From Metallosphaera sedula DSM 5348 (GTDB taxonomy: Archaea; Thermoproteota; Thermoprotei_A; Sulfolobales; Sulfolobaceae), in NCBI RefSeq assembly GCF_000016605.1, contig NC_009440.1, forward strand, positions 310,001 to 374,000: a stretch of DNA of 64,000 bases, in the 5' to 3' direction. Below, piece after piece: positions 5,845 through 18,834 of this stretch (positions are counted from its first letter, which is position 1; each line of letters begins with the position of its first letter). Position numbers and translations under genes: made by a program. The notes beneath the pieces are model-generated. The model worked only from the letters and a program-made list of their open reading frames with translations, was not told where the DNA came from and ran no database searches.

Positions 5845-6447
5845 CTAGATAATAGGTCTCTTTTTACTATGCCTTCCCCAGAATCCCTTGAACCTTTCCT
5901 CATCCCACACGTTGCCCCTCTCGTGATATCCCCTTTCCTCCCAATATCCGTCCACGTACTCAGGGATAAGTTCCATTGCGGTTACCCACTTTGCACTCTT
6001 CCATCCATAAAGGTGAGGAAAGAATGGCCTGGCTGGAAATCCCTCCTCCTTTGTTAGGGGTCTGCCATTCATCATTAGGACTAGGATTGAGTCCTCATTC
6101 ATTACGTCTTCAAGAGGTACCGTAGCAGTATATCCATCCAGTGAGTAGAATATCACCCACTTTGCCTCAGGCTTTGGGGAGGCCCTTTCCACGAGTCTTT
6201 TCAAGTTTATTCCTTTCCAGGACACATCCAGAACGCTCCAACCGGTGACGCAGTGGAAATCCCTCTTGTACTCCATGTCCATCATGTTCAGAAGTTCCTG
6301 GTAGGTGAAGCTTAACTCCCTCTCTACCATCCCTGTTATCTTGAACCTGTACTCCTCTACGTTAACCTCAGGGACACCAAGGGCCGCGTAGTATATGAAC
6401 CTCTTGATGGGACGTTGCCCTGGTGGCATTTGTTTTTGGTTTTCCAT
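5845..6447 (-). CDS. Sulfite oxidase-like molybdopterin-binding oxidoreductase
   Basis: Cytosolic molybdoprotein of 200 residues with the sulfite oxidase molybdopterin fold. [14 protein letters not shown] carries the Cys (C66) that should ligate Mo; [15 protein letters not shown] matches the conserved segment before the C-terminus. No heme domain, no Tat signal, no dimerisation domain, so it is close to the minimal size (YedY-like core). It is divergent from doxD-doxA, which suggests a role as sulfite:acceptor oxidoreductase in inorganic sulfur oxidation; the substrate is inferred from context, since related proteins reduce methionine sulfoxide or other S/N-oxides. Confidence 0.85.
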
Positions 6448-6668: not shown

Positions 6669-7217
6669 ATGGCGGAGAAACAGGGTTTGAATCCCGGAAA
6701 TTCAACGAGGATGGAGTACTTGTTCCCTATCAGGTTCGCAGTGGGATGGATGTTTCTCGATGGAGGACTTAGGAAGGCCGTGCTAAAGCCAGCTAAGTTG
6801 GATCCGAACTCCTCCTCCTTCGTTGGAGGGAAGTTAGTAAACTTCCTGCCACATGCAGGTCCCTTCAAGCCCTTTCTTTTAATGACATTGGAGAATAGGG
6901 GACTCGACGTTACGTTCCTAACAGCATTTAGCTACATAGAGATAATTGCTGGGCTATTTCTTGTGATAGGATTCTTAACTAGGTTATCAGCTCTAGCTGC
7001 GCTCTTCATGTCAGTGGGTTTCGCACCAGCTTACTGGTTAGGATCCACTTGTGAAGATGAATGGCAAATAGGTGCTCTTCTCACAGCAGGTTCCGTAGTG
7101 CTAATGCTTACTGCTACGGGTAGGGTATTCGGGTTAGATAGCGTCCTTTACAAGAAGTTTGGCGACAGGCCTCTTTCCAAGAGGATTCCCATACTCAACA
7201 TGATAAAGCTGTGGTGA
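6669..7217 (+). CDS. doxD: Thiosulfate:quinone oxidoreductase subunit DoxD
   Basis: Integral membrane subunit of thiosulfate:quinone oxidoreductase, which oxidises thiosulfate to tetrathionate and passes electrons to caldariella quinone. About four membrane segments with the DoxD pattern: [15 protein letters not shown], the conserved ALITLF-like helices and the [12 protein letters not shown] loop. Length 182 is normal. The ATG at 6669 follows GTGAT; AT-rich TATA candidates lie at about 6613-6638. It overlaps the doxA start, so the two are translationally coupled, as in Acidianus ambivalens and Metallosphaera. Confidence 0.93.
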
Positions 7218-7723
7218 TCAAATTGGATAGAACATCCATCATAGCTCTAGTGTTTGGAATCCTTGTCATTGGATTCATTCTAGGCACAGGTCAATGGGCA
7301 TATGGTAATGTCGTGGGACCACTGGTTAATTACTCGAAGTTGCCTAAGCTAGAAATAACCTACATCACAGCTAAGGATCAGGGTAATCAGACGCTGTTGA
7401 TAATGAATATTACTGACGTGAACGGTCCAGACGCGTATCCAGCATCAGCTCCTCTCATGGAAATTTACAACTCAACGTGGCATACTTATCTGAATTCCTC
7501 GGAAATCGCCAACTACACGGTCAAGGTAATTCAAGCTCCATGGAATGAGAACAAGAAGGATTATGTTAACTGGTACACAGGGTTTGCCATAGTTCTCGGA
7601 AGTGAGGCTCAGTTCCAACTACTCCTTCCAATTCACCTCAGCCCAGGAACTTACCACGTCAAGTTGTACACACCAGCAATCAGTCAGAAGTCAATGGCAA
7701 TAGCTAATTTCACTATAAGTTAA
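7211..7723 (+). CDS. doxA: Thiosulfate:quinone oxidoreductase subunit DoxA
   Basis: Partner of DoxD. One N-terminal membrane anchor (residues about 9-28) precedes a domain of about 135 residues facing the pseudoperiplasm, with seven N-glycosylation sequons (for example NYS, NIT, NST, NFT), in line with the glycosylated subunits reported for the Acidianus enzyme. Start is GTG 7211 or GTG 7214; the latter gives a GTGA overlap with the doxD stop. T-run terminator follows at once, so the operon is doxDA only. Confidence 0.92.
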
Positions 7724-11372: not shown

Positions 11373-11978
11373 TCACCAGTCGTCCGGACCTAGAACCCCA
11401 TTCAGGAAGGGATTGGATCTAACTTCATCCTGTAATGTGGTCCTGTCTCCGTGTCCTGGGAACACGTCCACAACGTTCATGGTTTTGATCTTTTCAAGAG
11501 TAACTCTCAGCGTATCCCTATCGCCACCAAGATCATATCTCCCGACGGTTCCCTTGAATAGGGTATCCCCAGTGAACAGGGATTGCCCCACAAGAATTGA
11601 GGTACTCCCCATGGTGTGACCCGGTGTGGATATTCCCATCAAGGTAAGATCGCCTACCCTAATCTCCGTTCCGTCCTTAAGTTCGTCATCTGGCTCTGGT
11701 GGAAGTTCTCTCCAGTCGTAGTAGAGGGGCATTAAATCCACATCCTTGAAGTTGATCAAGAACTTGGCCCCAATTCTCTTCAAGGGTTTCACGCCCAGCA
11801 CATGGTCAAAGTGACCGTGGGTTGAAACTATGTACTTGAGCCTCAGGCCACTTCCTCTCAGAAAAGCGATGACCTCGGAGGGATCTCCACCAGGGTCAAT
11901 TACTAGGGCCTCTCCCTTATCCCAAATAAGGTAACAGTTTGTGTGAAGGGGGCCCAACACGAATGTTCTAAGGTTCAC
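11373..11978 (-). CDS. Metallo-beta-lactamase-fold hydrolase (glyoxalase II / persulfide dioxygenase-like)
   Basis: 201-residue cytosolic protein with the MBL metal site THGHFDH (H-x-H-x-DH), a second ligand His in TPGHTMG, Asp in FTGDTLF and a final His in FPGHGD. The short single-domain form resembles glyoxalase II-like proteins; ETHE1/persulfide dioxygenases have the same fold. It lies 17 bp after dsrE on the same strand and starts with GTG without a clear ribosome site, so it may be the last gene of the tusA operon. In that context persulfide or thioester chemistry is plausible but unproven. Confidence 0.85.
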   Translation of the reverse strand: MNLRTFVLGPLHTNCYLIWDKGEALVIDPGGDPSEVIAFLRGSGLRLKYIVSTHGHFDHVLGVKPLKRIGAKFLINFKDVDLMPLYYDWRELPPEPDDELKDGTEIRVGDLTLMGISTPGHTMGSTSILVGQSLFTGDTLFKGTVGRYDLGGDRDTLRVTLEKIKTMNVVDVFPGHGDRTTLQDEVRSNPFLNGVLGPDDW

Positions 11979-11995: not shown

Positions 11996-12358
11996 CTAAA
12001 AAATAAGCGTGGCTTTTGATTGGGAACTCTTCAGGGCGAATTCTGAAACTCCTCCAACCTTGACCTTGTACACGAACTGGTCCTCGTGTATACCCTTGAC
12101 CCTCATTCCAAACTCACAGGCCGTTATCTCGAGATCCTCCCCAGCCAGTTCCACTAGGTTATCTAGGTAATACTTTAGCGTCTTAGTACCGTTGAGGACT
12201 ATCTTCTCCGACTCTGCTGTGAGCGCCCTAAGCGCGTCCATTGTGAAGAACATGTATATCTTGTTTCCACTAGAGGCGTAACCAATAGCAGTGATCACTC
12301 CCATCATCATCTTTTCGTGCTCGCCTGAGATCATCATGAAGGAGTACATTTCAGTCAT
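11996..12358 (-). CDS. DsrE-family sulfurtransferase subunit
   Basis: 120-residue cytosolic DsrE/DsrF-like protein expected to bind and pass on sulfane sulfur. The conserved Cys is C81 in ITACEFGMRVKGI, which matches the ACxxxM...GI pattern of DsrE2-type proteins. A longer reading frame exists from 12445, but the ATG at 12358 makes an ATGA overlap with the preceding gene and gives the normal family length. Fourth gene of the tusA - yedE - small membrane protein - dsrE operon. Related DsrE proteins of M. cuprina take part in thiosulfate transfer with TusA. Confidence 0.88.
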   Translation of the reverse strand: MTEMYSFMMISGEHEKMMMGVITAIGYASSGNKIYMFFTMDALRALTAESEKIVLNGTKTLKYYLDNLVELAGEDLEITACEFGMRVKGIHEDQFVYKVKVGGVSEFALKSSQSKATLIF

Positions 12359-12654
12359 GATCCAACCTCCTTGGACTGCACATATTTCACCAGGGAAACC
12401 CAAAACATGATCAACCCAACATAAACCACGGTGTAGCAGATCCACGTCGTAGCCTCGAGGTAACCCTGCAATTGGTCTGGTGGAACGTAAACAAGGAAGT
12501 TGGCCTGGTTCAATGCAATGTTGTCAGCCCCCGTCAAGTAAATCTTGCTGAATTGATACCACGCTATTGCGAACAGTGAGAGGACTAGAGGTCCTATTAC
12601 CCTCCTCACGGGATAGGGTTTAGCTTTAGGTTTAGATTTCTCCATTTCCTCCAT
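12355..12654 (-). CDS. Small two-helix membrane protein in the tusA-yedE-dsrE operon
   Basis: 99-residue protein with a basic N-terminus and membrane segments at about 20-37 and 68-88, joined by an outside loop. No family recognised. A GGGTGAG ribosome site lies just before ATG 12654; its stop overlaps the dsrE start (ATGA). Its place between the YeeE/YedE transporter and DsrE suggests an accessory subunit that helps pass sulfur from transporter to acceptor. Confidence 0.75.
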   Translation of the reverse strand: MEEMEKSKPKAKPYPVRRVIGPLVLSLFAIAWYQFSKIYLTGADNIALNQANFLVYVPPDQLQGYLEATTWICYTVVYVGLIMFWVSLVKYVQSKEVGS

Positions 12655-12663
12655 TTTCTCACC

Positions 12664-13911
<1,248 letters not shown>

Positions 13912-13913
13912 CC

Positions 13914-14168
13914 CTATCCCACCTTTAGTATTCTAAACCTGTAAACATCGCCGTCCTTCAACACGAGATAGGGATAACCCATGTTCTTGCAAAGGGACGG
14001 CAACGTTACGTCTACTGCAGGTTGGTGGTCCGTGATGACCTCGAGGACCTGACCGGGCTTCATCTTCTTTAACTTCTTACTGGCCATCATCTCTGGCACG
14101 GGGCAGGACTCGCCGATGACATCAAGTTGATCGTCCGGTTCCTTCACCTTTAGGGGCTCGGAAGACAT
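13914..14168 (-). CDS. tusA: TusA-family sulfur carrier protein
   Basis: 84-residue sulfur carrier with the SirA/TusA fold. The active motif is SCPVPEM with C22, followed by the usual KMKPGQ and [11 protein letters not shown] segments. ATG 14168 has GGTGATG just upstream. First gene of the operon with the YeeE/YedE transporter and DsrE. TusA proteins of Metallosphaera bind thiosulfate or persulfide and deliver it to the Hdr-like oxidation complex; no hdr genes are in this window. Confidence 0.95.
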
Positions 14169-14247: not shown

Positions 14248-14787
14248 TTAGTAAATTAGCAGATAAAGTATCACGATCACGTAAATGACCGTACCAGCTA
14301 TGGCCCACGGTGTAGGGTTCTGAAGGACCTTGAATCGGGTTGAAAGCGCCGAGTCTAACGATAATTGACCAGGCCCCCTCACGACCAGGTAGAGGTTGAG
14401 GAGCATTAGGAGAAGGTTAATTCCATACTCCTCCGTTCCTGTCCAGTAGGCTGAAAGGAAATAGATGAGGTTGGTGTAGAGGGCGACCGTGCTAGCTAGT
14501 CTAGACATGAGACCTAGAAGGGTGAGGACGCCGAAGCTTATTTCCCCTATCATCACTAGAACTCCCACGGTGTAGACGTGTGGAAATACGACTGCATATA
14601 GGAACCCCCTGATTGGGGAGCCCTCGGCCAGATACTGCACAGTGAAGCCTATGTATGACGTGGAACCTGCGTTAAGGAAACCTGGGTTCAGAAGCTTGTT
14701 GAAAACTCCAGCATCGAGCCAGATAGAGGCTACAGCAAGCCTTAGGATAAGTCTCTCGAGGCTGGACTCATTTCTGAGGGACTTCAA
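14248..14787 (-). CDS. DoxD/DoxX-family membrane protein (DoxD paralogue)
   Basis: 179 residues, about five membrane segments. It aligns by eye with DoxD of the same window ([15 protein letters not shown] versus [21 protein letters not shown] versus [11 protein letters not shown]) but lacks cysteine. No doxA follows; instead it is the last gene after the secreted beta-propeller and the vicinal-Cys membrane protein, overlapping the latter by 20 bp with a TTG start preceded by GAGGT. Probably the quinone-reducing membrane part of a second thiosulfate- or sulfur-oxidising complex; the substrate is unknown. Confidence 0.82.
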
Positions 14788-15685
14788 TACCTATCGACCT
14801 CTTAACCAGTTGAGAGGATATAACTGTTATCTGCCATATTCCCACGCCTAGAAGGATCATTCCCGCGATTGTAGGCGAGAGTAAGAGTATGGCCTGAAGA
14901 ATTCCCCCAGTCCATGCCCCAGCTATGAAAGCCCCATATTTCCAGGTAATCCCCTTGGTCAGGGCGGGATATGAGCCCGAAAGCAGGTAAAGTAGCGAGT
15001 TCATTGCTGTGGGAGAGAGGCAACATATCCCCGCAATTGTCCCGATAGACGGTATGGAAGCAGTTAGGAAACCTGCAGTGGTATTTAGAGTTCCCATGCG
15101 AAGAGACTTGGGGGCCGCCCATTTCATGGCGGAACTGGAAACGTAAAGGAGTGACATCACGTAATACGAGAAAATGAGGGATAAAGTAAGGACGACGTCG
15201 TTGAGTACTCCTAAGAGCAAGAGAGGGACATTCAGCACTAGATCTCCAAGCATGGGTATACCCTCTCCCTGGTAGGTAATTGCAGTAAGCCCCATGAAGT
15301 AGGAACTAACGTTCAGGTTAGGGATAAGGAGGAGGCCAGACACCACGAGGAAACTCAGGTAATAGGCCGGTACAAACACAGCTATCATGGCCCTACCAAC
15401 ACTATCCTTAAGTGTGGCCCTTAGAACAGCCCTCAGCCTCATGGGTCCATGAACTAGAATGAATCTTCCTCTCCTTGATTTGTATAGACTAACTCCTACA
15501 ATAACCGAGACCGCAAGATATGCAATCACGAACACGAGAAAGGGCTTAACAAAGGTAATTTGCCCCGTATCTGCAAGCGGAGAATACCATAGACTCACAA
15601 TTCTAATACCGTTTATTACAATGGGCAAAAATACAGTCGCATTAAAAAATAGAAAGACGTAGAAAAAAGGGTTGATTGGTCTCAT
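14768..15685 (-). CDS. Polytopic membrane protein with a vicinal Cys pair
   Basis: 305 residues, about eight membrane segments, not recognised. Its only cysteines are C221-C222 in [10 protein letters not shown], inside or at the edge of a helix; such a pair could be redox active or bind persulfide. ATG 15685 has an AGGTG ribosome site and begins 9 bp after the propeller gene. The stop lies inside the DoxD-paralogue gene. Operon position suggests it forms a complex with those two proteins. Confidence 0.75.
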
Positions 15686-15694
15686 GATGACACC

Positions 15695-16915
15695 TTAGCA
15701 GTGCAATCCTGTAACAGGAGGTAACATTACCTGATCCACAAGGTAGGTTCCCATGCTCTGGCTTATTGGTATTACAATCGCGGGGGCAGTTGTCAGGGGT
15801 AGAGTATAGGACACTGAAAGGGTGGACAAGGAGATCAAAACTATCATACCTCCAGCGCTAACGCTTCCGTGAATCACCACATATGCGTAACTCCCGCCAG
15901 GCGTGATCTCTATGTCCGCTAAACCTGCGGGAGAGATTTGTGGAAGAGCTATCTCCTTAACTATCTGGAAATTGGACGTAGATATGACAACCACTGTGTC
16001 GTTATTGCTTGGCGCCTCTAAGTAATACTGTCCATTTGGAGTGAAAACGCCTCTCTGAGGAGTCATTCCCTTGGGCATCTGGACCATTCCAAGTAGTTGA
16101 AGGTTGGGTAAGGAATAGAATCCCACAGAGTTATTCCCAGCAAACTCTACCGCAACCATCGTACCCTGTTCGTTGGGGCTTAACATGTAGGGTTGTGAAC
16201 CTAAGCTCGTCGGTTTCACTAGTAGAACCGAGCCGTTACTAGCGCTTATGATATCTATACTGTTATTGAACCTCATGGGTATGAGAAGTTCGCTCCCATC
16301 TGGAGTCCATCTGACGTCACAAGGATAGTACGTCTTACCTGTTGGAGAAACAAACTTTTGACTCCACACTGTCTGAAGCGTCTGCATGTTAATAACTAGA
16401 ACTTCGCCTGAGGGTCCATCAGCTATGGCCGCATAGTCACCGTTAGGGGAAATTGCAACTCCAATGAAACCTGTGGAAGATCCAACCTGTAAAGTTTTAA
16501 CTACCTTGAAGTTGGTCGTGTTTATAATGAAGACAGTGCCGTTATTCAAGGGCATAAACATGTACTTTATGGATGCTCCAACAGGTACCTCTTCCCAGTA
16601 ATATACCTGTGTGGGCACACTAGTAGATATATTCTCTACTCTCTGGAAGCCAAGAAAACTCTGACTGCTGCTGAAGGGGTTGAGAACTTGAGCTATCCCC
16701 TTTTGCGTAAGGGCCAAGAAGTAGAAGTTGTTATTTGGAGTCGAGGTCGTGGTTGAGGTACTGGTGTTGGTTGTCGTGGTGGTAGTGGTCGTTGTAGGAG
16801 ACGTGGTGGACGTGGAGGGACCGCTGGTGTTGCTTCTCATCATAATATAAGCTGCACCTATTCCCACAAGAAGTATCACGACTATTCCAGCTATTAATAA
16901 CGCCTTATAGTTCAT
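15695..16915 (-). CDS. Secreted/membrane-anchored YVTN-type beta-propeller protein
   Basis: 406 residues: an N-terminal membrane anchor (about 5-25), a Ser/Thr-rich linker (about 29-60, long Thr runs as in glycosylated archaeal surface proteins), then six or seven beta-propeller blades with repeats such as [13 protein letters not shown] and [15 protein letters not shown]. Many sequons. Only two cysteines: C199 (YYPCDVRW) and the very last residue C406 (GLHC). These could form a disulfide or carry a substrate. Faces outside. First gene of the operon with the vicinal-Cys membrane protein and DoxD paralogue. Confidence 0.8.
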
Positions 16916-16997: not shown

Positions 16998-17327
16998 TTA
17001 AATAGTTATAACTAGGTCAACGTCGTCTATAACTGCCTTGTAAAAGTCTGGGAAACATCCTATCTTGCAGGAGGGAATCAGTTTATCGGCTATATTCCTC
17101 ATATATACGCACTGATCGCAAGCCTGAAGGTATATTCCCTTCTTTGAGAGCTCCTCAAGTCTTTGACCAAGGGGATTCTCCCTCATGGGGATGTAAACGT
17201 TATCGTGAATGAAAAACATCCCCTTAACCTCAACTCCGTGTCTACCTTCCTCGAGTTGAGGCACTATCATCTGACCGAGGATGTAGGAGCCAAGGTTGGA
17301 CTCAACTATGTACGCTACTCTTTTCAA
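16998..17327 (-). CDS. Cys-rich DsrE-related protein (SaoD-like)
   Basis: 109-residue DsrE-fold protein: VAYIVESNLGSYILGQMI opens the Rossmann-like fold and QACDQCVYMRN plus SCKIGC give four closely placed cysteines. It resembles the DsrE-related SaoD family. Starts with TTG 17327 (a GGTGATGG motif precedes it) and overlaps the upstream gene by 26 bp, so the two are coupled. Likely to handle sulfane sulfur, but its partner is unknown. Confidence 0.75.
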   Translation of the reverse strand: MKRVAYIVESNLGSYILGQMIVPQLEEGRHGVEVKGMFFIHDNVYIPMRENPLGQRLEELSKKGIYLQACDQCVYMRNIADKLIPSCKIGCFPDFYKAVIDDVDLVITI

Positions 17328-17670
17328 CTTCCATCACCTTAGCTAGCTCCTCAGCTAACTTCTCAAGGACATGGTTAATCTGCAACCCCTTTACCCTTCC
17401 TAGGACCTCCCTCCAGTTCTCAGGAGTGACTCCATCCTCCATAGCCTCTAGAAGTGCCTCCAAACCTATGATAACAAGAGGGCACTCTGAGGATTTGTAC
17501 CTTATCTCCTCTCCCCTCCTGTAAATCTCAAACCATCTCTGACCATCCAGGTTAACCCTAGTTACTAGTCTAAAGCCCCTTTCCCCGTTCAGGGCGTAAA
17601 ACCTTCTCACGAGGAAGTCTGAAGCATACTTCCTCTCTACAACGCAACCACATGAATCTTTCTTGACCAT
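17302..17670 (-). CDS. Hypothetical 122-aa protein coupled to the DsrE-like gene
   Basis: Not recognised. The N-terminus has DSCGCVV, the middle is beta-rich, and a helix of about 35 charged residues ends the protein. One more Cys lies in SSECPLV. ATG 17670 has a TATA box (about 17691-17700) at leaderless distance. The 26-bp overlap with the Cys-rich DsrE gene implies joint function, perhaps a regulatory or docking partner. Confidence 0.65.
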   Translation of the reverse strand: MVKKDSCGCVVERKYASDFLVRRFYALNGERGFRLVTRVNLDGQRWFEIYRRGEEIRYKSSECPLVIIGLEALLEAMEDGVTPENWREVLGRVKGLQINHVLEKLAEELAKVMEVEKSSVHS

Positions 17671-17827
17671 ACTTTTTATGATTATTTGCTAATTTATAAA
17701 TGTTTTGAATATCAACAGAATAAATGATAAATCATTCATACGTTCATGGAAGATGACGAGTCTTCAAGGGCTTTCCAGTGATGCAAGAAGTGCCCTGAGG
17801 CTAACCTTAAATTGAAAATAAAAAATA

Positions 17828-17837
17828 CTTATATATC
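17828..17837 (+). promoter_or_regulatory. TATA box for the TusA-fusion gene
   Basis: CTTATATATC is centred about 25 nt before GTG 17857. This supports the GTG rather than the upstream in-frame TTG at 17812. Confidence 0.6.
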
Positions 17838-17856
17838 TGAAAAACTAATTAATCAT

Positions 17857-18834
17857 GTGGAAACTTCAGTTGTGTTGAGGGTGAGGGGGTTCCAGCAACT
17901 CCTAGATGTGGAGAAGTATCATAGGCTCTACATGCTATCCGACGTTAGGAGATTGAGTTGGGGTTACTCTGCCAAGTTAAAGTTGGGCAAGATCTCATTC
18001 CCCGTTTTGGTGAAGGTTGGGAGAAACTCTCTGGAAATGTACGAGGAGCAGGGTAAATTCATGGTTCACTTGGAATTCGTTGAGGGAGACAGCGTCAAGG
18101 TAAGGATCAGGGTGGAGGCGTCGAATGAAATGGTGAAGTCTTCCCTAGAGGAGGGAATTTCCAGGAACCTTAATGAATACGCCGAATCCATCTGTAAGGC
18201 TGGGAAGGGAAGATCTCAGGAGCCCTTGGGATTAATCATGATGATGAAACCCTTTGTCAGGAGGCATCTTGACGTTAGGGGGGAGCAATGTCCTATTCCA
18301 GAAATTGCAGCAAAGAAGGAGTTAACCAAGATGAAACCAGGGGAGGAATTGGAGATATTAGTGGATCATCCTGCTGCCGTAGACGTGACGCTTCCTGAGG
18401 TTGCGAAACTCATGAACTGCAGGTATGACATCTACAACATGGGAGATTACGTTTCCTTTGTGATGCTGAAACTGGGAGATCCAATCATGAATAAAAATTA
18501 CCTTGAGGCGTTGACAAAACGCGAGAGGATACCTGAGATGATGAAGGACATGGGATTCATAGCGTTTCTGTACTCTGTCTTTGACAAGGTGATAAGGCAA
18601 TTACCCACAGATGGTCTTTACCCAGAGATCTTCAGATATGACGGCCTCACCCTCGTAACCTCTGCGTCCATAGGTCGCGGTTGGCTAGCGGTAGCATTAG
18701 TTGAAGACGACAAGATTTTGGGAATGATGCTGGACATTAAGGGAGATAGGTACTGGAATCAGGACGCGCTGAAGGTCATAAACAGGGTGAAGGGAATAGG
18801 GAACGTCTTTTACCTCAAGGCTAGTTCAACCTAA
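17857..18834 (+). CDS. TusA-domain fusion protein (N-terminal SRPBCC-like domain, central TusA, C-terminal unknown domain)
   Basis: 325 residues in three parts. Residues about 1-120 form a beta-rich domain ending in an amphipathic helix, which looks like an SRPBCC (helix-grip) domain. Residues about 135-207 are a full TusA domain with GEQCPIPE (C145), KMKPGE and DHPAAVDVTLP. The last about 115 residues form an alpha/beta domain I do not recognise. Start GTG 17857 is set by the TATA box. It is expected to carry sulfur like TusA while binding a hydrophobic ligand or partner. Its 3' end overlaps the convergent gene by 9 bp. Confidence 0.8.
   Translation: METSVVLRVRGFQQLLDVEKYHRLYMLSDVRRLSWGYSAKLKLGKISFPVLVKVGRNSLEMYEEQGKFMVHLEFVEGDSVKVRIRVEASNEMVKSSLEEGISRNLNEYAESICKAGKGRSQEPLGLIMMMKPFVRRHLDVRGEQCPIPEIAAKKELTKMKPGEELEILVDHPAAVDVTLPEVAKLMNCRYDIYNMGDYVSFVMLKLGDPIMNKNYLEALTKRERIPEMMKDMGFIAFLYSVFDKVIRQLPTDGLYPEIFRYDGLTLVTSASIGRGWLAVALVEDDKILGMMLDIKGDRYWNQDALKVINRVKGIGNVFYLKASST

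Follow-up and report, generated by a model that had tools for sequence, protein, structure and literature searches.

Described systems for the handling of reduced sulfur

A close described counterpart of the locus considered here is thiosulfate:quinone oxidoreductase (TQO, DoxDA) of Acidianus ambivalens. As in TQO, a DoxD-family membrane subunit is encoded, and in Metallosphaera both systems lie in the same sulfur island. Unlike in TQO, this subunit (DoxDx) is encoded in a trio with a propeller protein (PROP) and an eight-TM membrane protein with a CC pair (MEMcc), within a ten-gene unit; the trio has no DoxA, and DoxDx belongs to a separate clade that lacks the loop cysteine. According to the passages of PMC4175335 that describe the "sulfur island" of M. 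cuprina, it comprises TQO, a gene with a sulfate-transporter domain and DsrE5 (Mcup_1706), and it matches the present region; those passages make no mention of the trio.

In YeeE-YeeD (TsuAB), thiosulfate is decomposed by the YeeD-type TusA protein for uptake by YeeE (PMC11073785). The module described below likewise has an adjacent TusA and YeeE-family pair, but its YeeE falls under the TsuA cut-off (76.2 bits against NCBIfam NF052577, cut-off 400), and the trio, the SaoD-like protein and other members have no counterpart in the described E. coli system. With SoxYZ, the resemblance concerns the way of working only, PROP being an extracytoplasmic protein with a conserved cysteine on a C-terminal arm. 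PROP, however, ends in GLHC and not in GGCGG, has a propeller fold, is membrane-anchored and shows no SoxYZ homology; searches against Pfam and NCBIfam found no SoxY or SoxZ family in it and gave propeller families only. Tetrathionate hydrolase (TetH/TTH) is also an extracytoplasmic beta-propeller of acidophilic sulfur oxidisers, but it is eight-bladed and Cys-independent (PMC10859504), whereas PROP has two invariant cysteines and an anchor. Finally, the nearest folds and profile matches of PROP are the thiocyanate dehydrogenase and lactonase-type NosZ propellers. Nevertheless, PROP is far below the family cut-off, has two invariant histidines only and gives no sign of a copper centre.

Organization and distribution of the trio

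The window, a stretch of 64,000 nucleotides of Metallosphaera sedula DSM 5348 (G000:C1:310001-374000), contains PROP, MEMcc and DoxDx as three real open reading frames, all on the minus strand and located where the earlier note had placed them (Table 1). The close spacing that it had reported is borne out by the coordinates, with a gap of 9 bp between PROP (end 15695) and MEMcc (start 15685) and an overlap of 20 bp between MEMcc and DoxDx (14768-14787). Its cysteine inventory is equally correct, as PROP has just two, C199 and the C-terminal C406, and MEMcc just two, the adjacent C221-C222. The third protein is DoxD-like, as claimed, with a match to PF04173 and no adjoining DoxA.

Table 1. Positions of the trio, of the other module genes and of the genuine TQO genes in the window
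Feature	Position	Strand	Remarks
PROP, N-anchored extracytoplasmic beta-propeller	15695..16915	-	406 aa; invariant C199, C406
MEMcc, membrane protein, ~8 TM predicted	14768..15685	-	305 aa; invariant vicinal C221-C222
DoxDx, DoxD-family, separate clade, no DoxA partner	14248..14787	-	179 aa; without the loop Cys of DoxA-linked DoxD
TusA-type sulfur carrier, partner-type protein of YeeE	13914..14168	-	invariant C22
YeeE/YedE-family transporter	12664..13911	-	PF04143 Sulf_transp, 3.3e-51; four invariant Cys
Small membrane protein, 99 aa	12355..12654	-	one invariant Cys, C73
DsrE-family protein	11996..12445	-	invariant C110; listed start probably too early, orthologues ~120 aa
SaoD-like DsrE-family protein	16998..17327	-	three invariant Cys: CxxC + C91
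w122, 122-aa protein	17302..17670	-	invariant CxC + C63; no family match
TusA fusion, TusA domain within 340-aa protein	17812..18834	+	full-length form only in module genomes
DoxD of genuine TQO (comparator)	6669..7217	+	invariant loop Cys C128
DoxA of genuine TQO (comparator)	7211..7723	+	

Among the Sulfolobaceae, 23 of 31 genomes examined, from 7 of 11 genera, encode MEMcc. It was found in none of 67 genomes from other families of the order, and a search of 398 genomes across Thermoproteota returned nothing save one weak match (44 residues, E 4e-4). The proposal made in the earlier note depended on the three genes staying together and on their cysteines being conserved in orthologues, and both hold. 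The same trio recurs in 23 of the 31 genomes, where a full-length PROP gene always adjoins MEMcc and is accompanied by DoxDx after it (23/23), and neither PROP nor DoxDx was found in the eight Sulfolobaceae genomes that have no MEMcc. The C221-C222 pair is invariant in all 24 MEMcc orthologues (one truncated duplicate counted), and C199 and C406 are invariant in all 23 PROP proteins, the alignment of which has no further cysteine column and a C-terminus, (V/I)(T/S)GLHC, that is fixed through the last residue. Elsewhere in MEMcc, cysteines occur sporadically, in 1-5 of the 24 sequences per column, and the cysteine pattern is therefore more than chance.

The genomes compared include those of Stygiolobus sp. 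KN-1 (G014; PMC8483694), Stygiolobus azoricus (G022; PMC7067957), Sulfurisphaera ohwakuensis (G024) and Sulfolobus sp. A20 (G010; PMC5127849). In G016, which also has an intact copy, a second site (L047 7268-8327) holds a truncated MEMcc gene (176 aa, C-terminal half) and a full DoxDx gene with no propeller; this is a partial second copy of the trio in decay. We take G013 to be Sulfodiicoccus acidiphilus and G020 to be S. acidocaldarius.

DoxDx and the DoxD of genuine TQO

The genuine DoxDA of this genome lies 6.5 kb from the trio. A protein with a molybdopterin-binding oxidoreductase domain (PF00174, 2e-41; 5845-6447, minus strand) directly adjoins it and is possibly a sulfite-oxidising enzyme within the sulfur island. 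DoxDx belongs to PF04173 (8e-51; 172.6 bits, cut-off 22.7) and scores 46.9 bits against the NCBIfam model of TQO DoxD (NF041179), the cut-off of which is 300. When 49 DoxD proteins are placed in one tree, the 23 that are linked to MEMcc are monophyletic (support 1.0) and separate from both DoxA-linked DoxD and DoxD2; wherever the neighbour check saw no DoxA next to a DoxD2, a separate DoxA search found an adjoining match. DoxA never stands beside DoxDx in the trio loci. Trio genomes usually also carry genuine DoxDA, and two of them (G012 and G027) have no DoxA anywhere in the genome.

Eleven columns are common to DoxDx, DoxD and DoxD2 (R16, L38, P40, S42, L63, E82, G86, G92, W115, E120 and D145 in DoxDx numbering), and thus the DoxD core is kept in DoxDx. 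The sole invariant cysteine of DoxD and DoxD2 (C128 in the DoxD of this genome) lies in the loop LGSTC(E/V)DEW and is present in 26 of 26 proteins. In DoxDx it is found in 0 of 23, having been lost with two neighbours in a deletion of three residues; this cysteine is a feature observed in the present analysis and not a published criterion for TQO. DoxDx of this genome has no cysteine at all, and DoxDx proteins have an extra C-terminal TM helix. The DoxA examined also has none, which makes C128 the only invariant thiol in TQO as judged by sequence; the thiols of the trio, by contrast, are on PROP and MEMcc. The C128 loop of DoxD and DoxD2 tends to be placed outside by hydropathy, with a weak charge bias, although a cytoplasmic orientation of the TQO active site has been suggested (PMC8551704).

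The trio as part of TQO was considered and is ruled out by the clade tree, the absent DoxA and the loss of the cysteine. For the same reasons, it is not a "second TQO" by family, although it may work like one.

Structure and topology of PROP and MEMcc

In the AlphaFold model of PROP, a helix at the N-terminus (3-26) is followed by a disordered linker rich in Ser and Thr (~27-61), the propeller (~62-388) and a tail that reaches residue 406. The description of PROP in the earlier note as an exported propeller stands as far as its extracytoplasmic location is concerned, and it is better described as anchored outside by the helix and the linker. The propeller is well modelled from ~105, and the low confidence of the tail (388-406) is consistent with flexibility. 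C199 lies where a blade strand begins, within a YPCDxRWxP segment, and in YVTN-type propellers residues at such strand starts face the central funnel. In addition, the invariant residues D166, D200, R202, E257, R288, E300, H349 and H405, charged or histidine, suggest a putative binding site.

In Pfam and NCBIfam, PROP gives weak matches to generic propeller families. Its matches to L-NosZ (NCBIfam, 37.3 bits, cut-off 700) and hydrazine synthase were set aside as general propeller similarity far under the cut-off. A fold search placed thiocyanate dehydrogenase at the top, with many generic propellers at tied scores. The model resembles seven-bladed folds, a match that is not discriminating, and it has the invariant cysteines.

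Neither Pfam nor NCBIfam matched MEMcc (21 members searched), and a sequence search found no relatives in the PDB; on this basis, it is a protein family that the searched family libraries do not cover. From averaged hydropathy and charge, about eight TM helices are predicted, with both termini inside, and K+R amount to 17.9 in the inner loops versus 0.6 in the outer loops. The C221-C222 pair is predicted in the turn that joins TM5 to TM6 on the outside, beside the tethered propeller. The AlphaFold model of MEMcc (pLDDT 38, five sequences) was unusable and set aside, and the accessibility of the pair is therefore judged from hydropathy.

The ten-gene module

In the window, nine co-directional genes run from 17670 to 11996 in the order w122, SaoD-like, PROP, MEMcc, DoxDx, TusA, YeeE, the 99-aa membrane protein and DsrE, and the TusA fusion at 17812 points away from them. 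By its position, the DsrE-family protein corresponds to the DsrE5 group in the account that PMC4175335 gives of the island (Mcup_1706). The same gene set surrounds the trio, in shuffled order, at nearly all loci. For instance, YeeE is encoded in exactly those 23 of the 31 genomes that have the trio, while the other eight have either no YeeE or, in S. azoricus, a remnant of 26 residues; the SaoD-like gene adjoins the trio in 21 of 23 genomes; and no full-length TusA fusion was found in any genome without the trio. G030, one of the two trio genomes without an adjoining SaoD gene, has a decayed SaoD-like gene with internal stops (G030:C1:778884-779192). Just downstream of the module, a co-directional metallo-beta-lactamase-fold hydrolase (11373-11978, minus strand) is encoded at most Metallosphaera loci and was not found beside it in G005; it may be an enzyme of the glyoxalase type or one that resembles persulfide dioxygenase.

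The unity of the module is seen in two comparisons. Within one genus, a stretch of exactly ten genes, from DsrE to DoxDx (L045 2667-9595, G029), is missing from L097 (G028), where 286 bp stand in place of the ten genes and the sequence is colinear and continuous on both sides. In G020, no syntenic empty site can be demonstrated, as the flanks are scattered. In S. azoricus, a stretch of 5.9 kb that is present in KN-1 (L034 6234-12095) and holds the trio along with most of the unit is missing, its ends abutting at L092 8103/8107, and the scar consists of 25 residues of YeeE and 26 of the TusA fusion left next to each other (L092 7700-8800). The genes for the 99-aa membrane protein and DsrE are intact beside this scar. 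Thus, the trio is not free-standing but belongs to a unit of ten genes that genomes retain or lose together, and both the empty site and the deletion speak against a self-contained three-gene dehydrogenase.

KN-1 grows on S0 with O2, whereas S. azoricus, an obligate anaerobe, shows no such growth (PMC8483694). Loss in the latter and retention in the former fit an oxidative role of the module. Nevertheless, S. azoricus has kept DoxDA although it has lost the trio, and the link with phenotype therefore comes from one sister pair.

Proposed function and its alternatives

The trio probably acts in sulfur or thiol redox as a class of function, with PROP, MEMcc and DoxDx probably taking up and oxidising sulfur compounds at the cell surface. 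The more specific proposal, to which we give an even chance, is that they serve a ten-gene unit for the acquisition and oxidation of sulfane sulfur as its arm in the membrane and at the cell surface. It draws on the all-or-none occurrence of PROP, MEMcc, DoxDx and YeeE (23 genomes versus none in 8), on the precise ten-gene empty site and the 5.9-kb deletion that S. azoricus shows and KN-1 does not, on the invariant cysteines of PROP and MEMcc with the CC pair predicted on the outer side, and on the neighbouring TusA, YeeE, DsrE and SaoD proteins with invariant cysteines of their own. The directly supported basis is gene unity, invariant cysteines, the separate DoxDx clade, the loss of its cysteine and a sequence-based topology. 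The best reading is a surface complex for sulfane-sulfur or thiol redox that would feed YeeE and TusA; the substrate, the electron flow and the coupling to quinone are inferred.

In such a complex, the tethered propeller would capture a reduced sulfur species outside, which may be thiosulfate, polythionate, polysulfide or activated S0. The flexible C406 together with C199 would carry or activate it in thiosulfonate, persulfide or disulfide form, much as the SoxY arm does. At the outer membrane face, the CC pair of MEMcc could then swap disulfide or sulfane with the PROP arm through a presumed Cys-to-Cys contact, and DoxDx, having given up the DoxD cysteine, would most likely couple MEMcc to the quinone pool, with electrons presumably flowing towards quinone. 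Sulfur may enter via YeeE and pass to TusA and from there to the DsrE, SaoD and TusA-fusion proteins. The oxidative direction of the module is assumed. According to the passages concerned in PMC4175335, TusA and DsrE3A of M. cuprina carry Cys-S-thiosulfonate, and this chemistry, along with the decomposition of thiosulfate by YeeD, makes the cytoplasmic half plausible. For the outer half (PROP, MEMcc and DoxDx), the literature search found no biochemical precedent.

Other explanations of the trio have to be weighed against a surface arm of this kind. The earlier note suggested a possible second thiosulfate or sulfur dehydrogenase, with the substrate bound on the propeller and electrons passed via the CC pair to quinone. 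We consider such an enzyme, free-standing and independent of the neighbours, unlikely, because the trio is never found apart from the YeeE/TusA set and is absent with it as one unit, DoxDx has neither the DoxD cysteine nor a DoxA, and trio genomes usually already have a real DoxDA, even though DoxD homology, invariant cysteines and a CC pair at the predicted outer face agree with it. Somewhat more doubtful is extracytoplasmic thiol oxidation in the manner of DsbB/VKOR, by which MEMcc and DoxDx would set the redox state via quinone and leave the sulfur chemistry to YeeE and TusA; the thiols kept in the right state would be the two on the propeller, or else those of YeeE and its partner proteins. 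The two PROP cysteines and the vicinal MEMcc pair do suit disulfide exchange, and the co-occurrence with a four-Cys YeeE is strict. Yet MEMcc has an adjacent CC only, with no CxxC and no match to a DsbB/VKOR family profile, and the closeness of C199 and C406 is unsupported, as the PROP tail is of low confidence.

The handling of soft metals (Cu, Hg, As) or selenium, with the C-terminal His-Cys, the membrane CC pair, the SaoD-like protein and the CxC protein as ligands, seems very improbable. Known copper propellers need more histidines than the two that are invariant in PROP, where a search for multiple conserved copper-binding histidines found H349 and H405 only, and the genes around the trio encode sulfur carriers and a transporter of the YeeE family. 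This is set against the presence of a SaoD-like protein in the module, the linkage of Sao proteins with terminal CC/CU motifs to metals (PMC13188914) and the copper enzymes among the best fold neighbours of PROP, which are tied with many others. Invariant cysteines would also be expected from soft-metal or thiol-redox roles.

Possible significance for sulfur oxidation in Sulfolobaceae

A search of the freely available literature, by locus tag (Msed_, Mcup_) and by combinations of terms, found no description of the trio, and the earlier note knew of no described complex of such composition. The trio is a conserved and undescribed set of probable surface-redox proteins in a ten-gene sulfur module, with a detailed function that is inferred. 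G008, presumably S. tokodaii, carries the YeeE of the module. A transcriptome paper states that its own YeeE is absent from S. tokodaii, and the sulfur response reported there is therefore not simply transferable to the module YeeE.

For Sulfolobales, the gaps that are open include the entry of S0 to the cytoplasm and the S0-oxidising enzyme of organisms without SOR, such as Metallosphaera (PMC8551704). Transferred together into Sulfolobus acidocaldarius, SOR, TQO and SQR did not give prolific sulfur oxidation (PMC11323534), which indicates that the known cytoplasmic enzymes are insufficient in that organism. As a tentative suggestion, the locus may encode a new membrane complex that captures extracellular sulfane sulfur, passes electrons to quinone and sulfur to YeeE/TusA, and would supply a missing step in sulfur-oxidising Sulfolobaceae; equally tentatively, this complex would consist of a tethered propeller whose C-terminal arm bears a cysteine, a member of a new membrane protein family with vicinal cysteines, and a DoxD devoid of cysteine. 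The ten-gene unit with its probable surface redox trio occurs in sulfur oxidisers, is lacking in S. acidocaldarius and is a concrete, testable candidate for the missing part.
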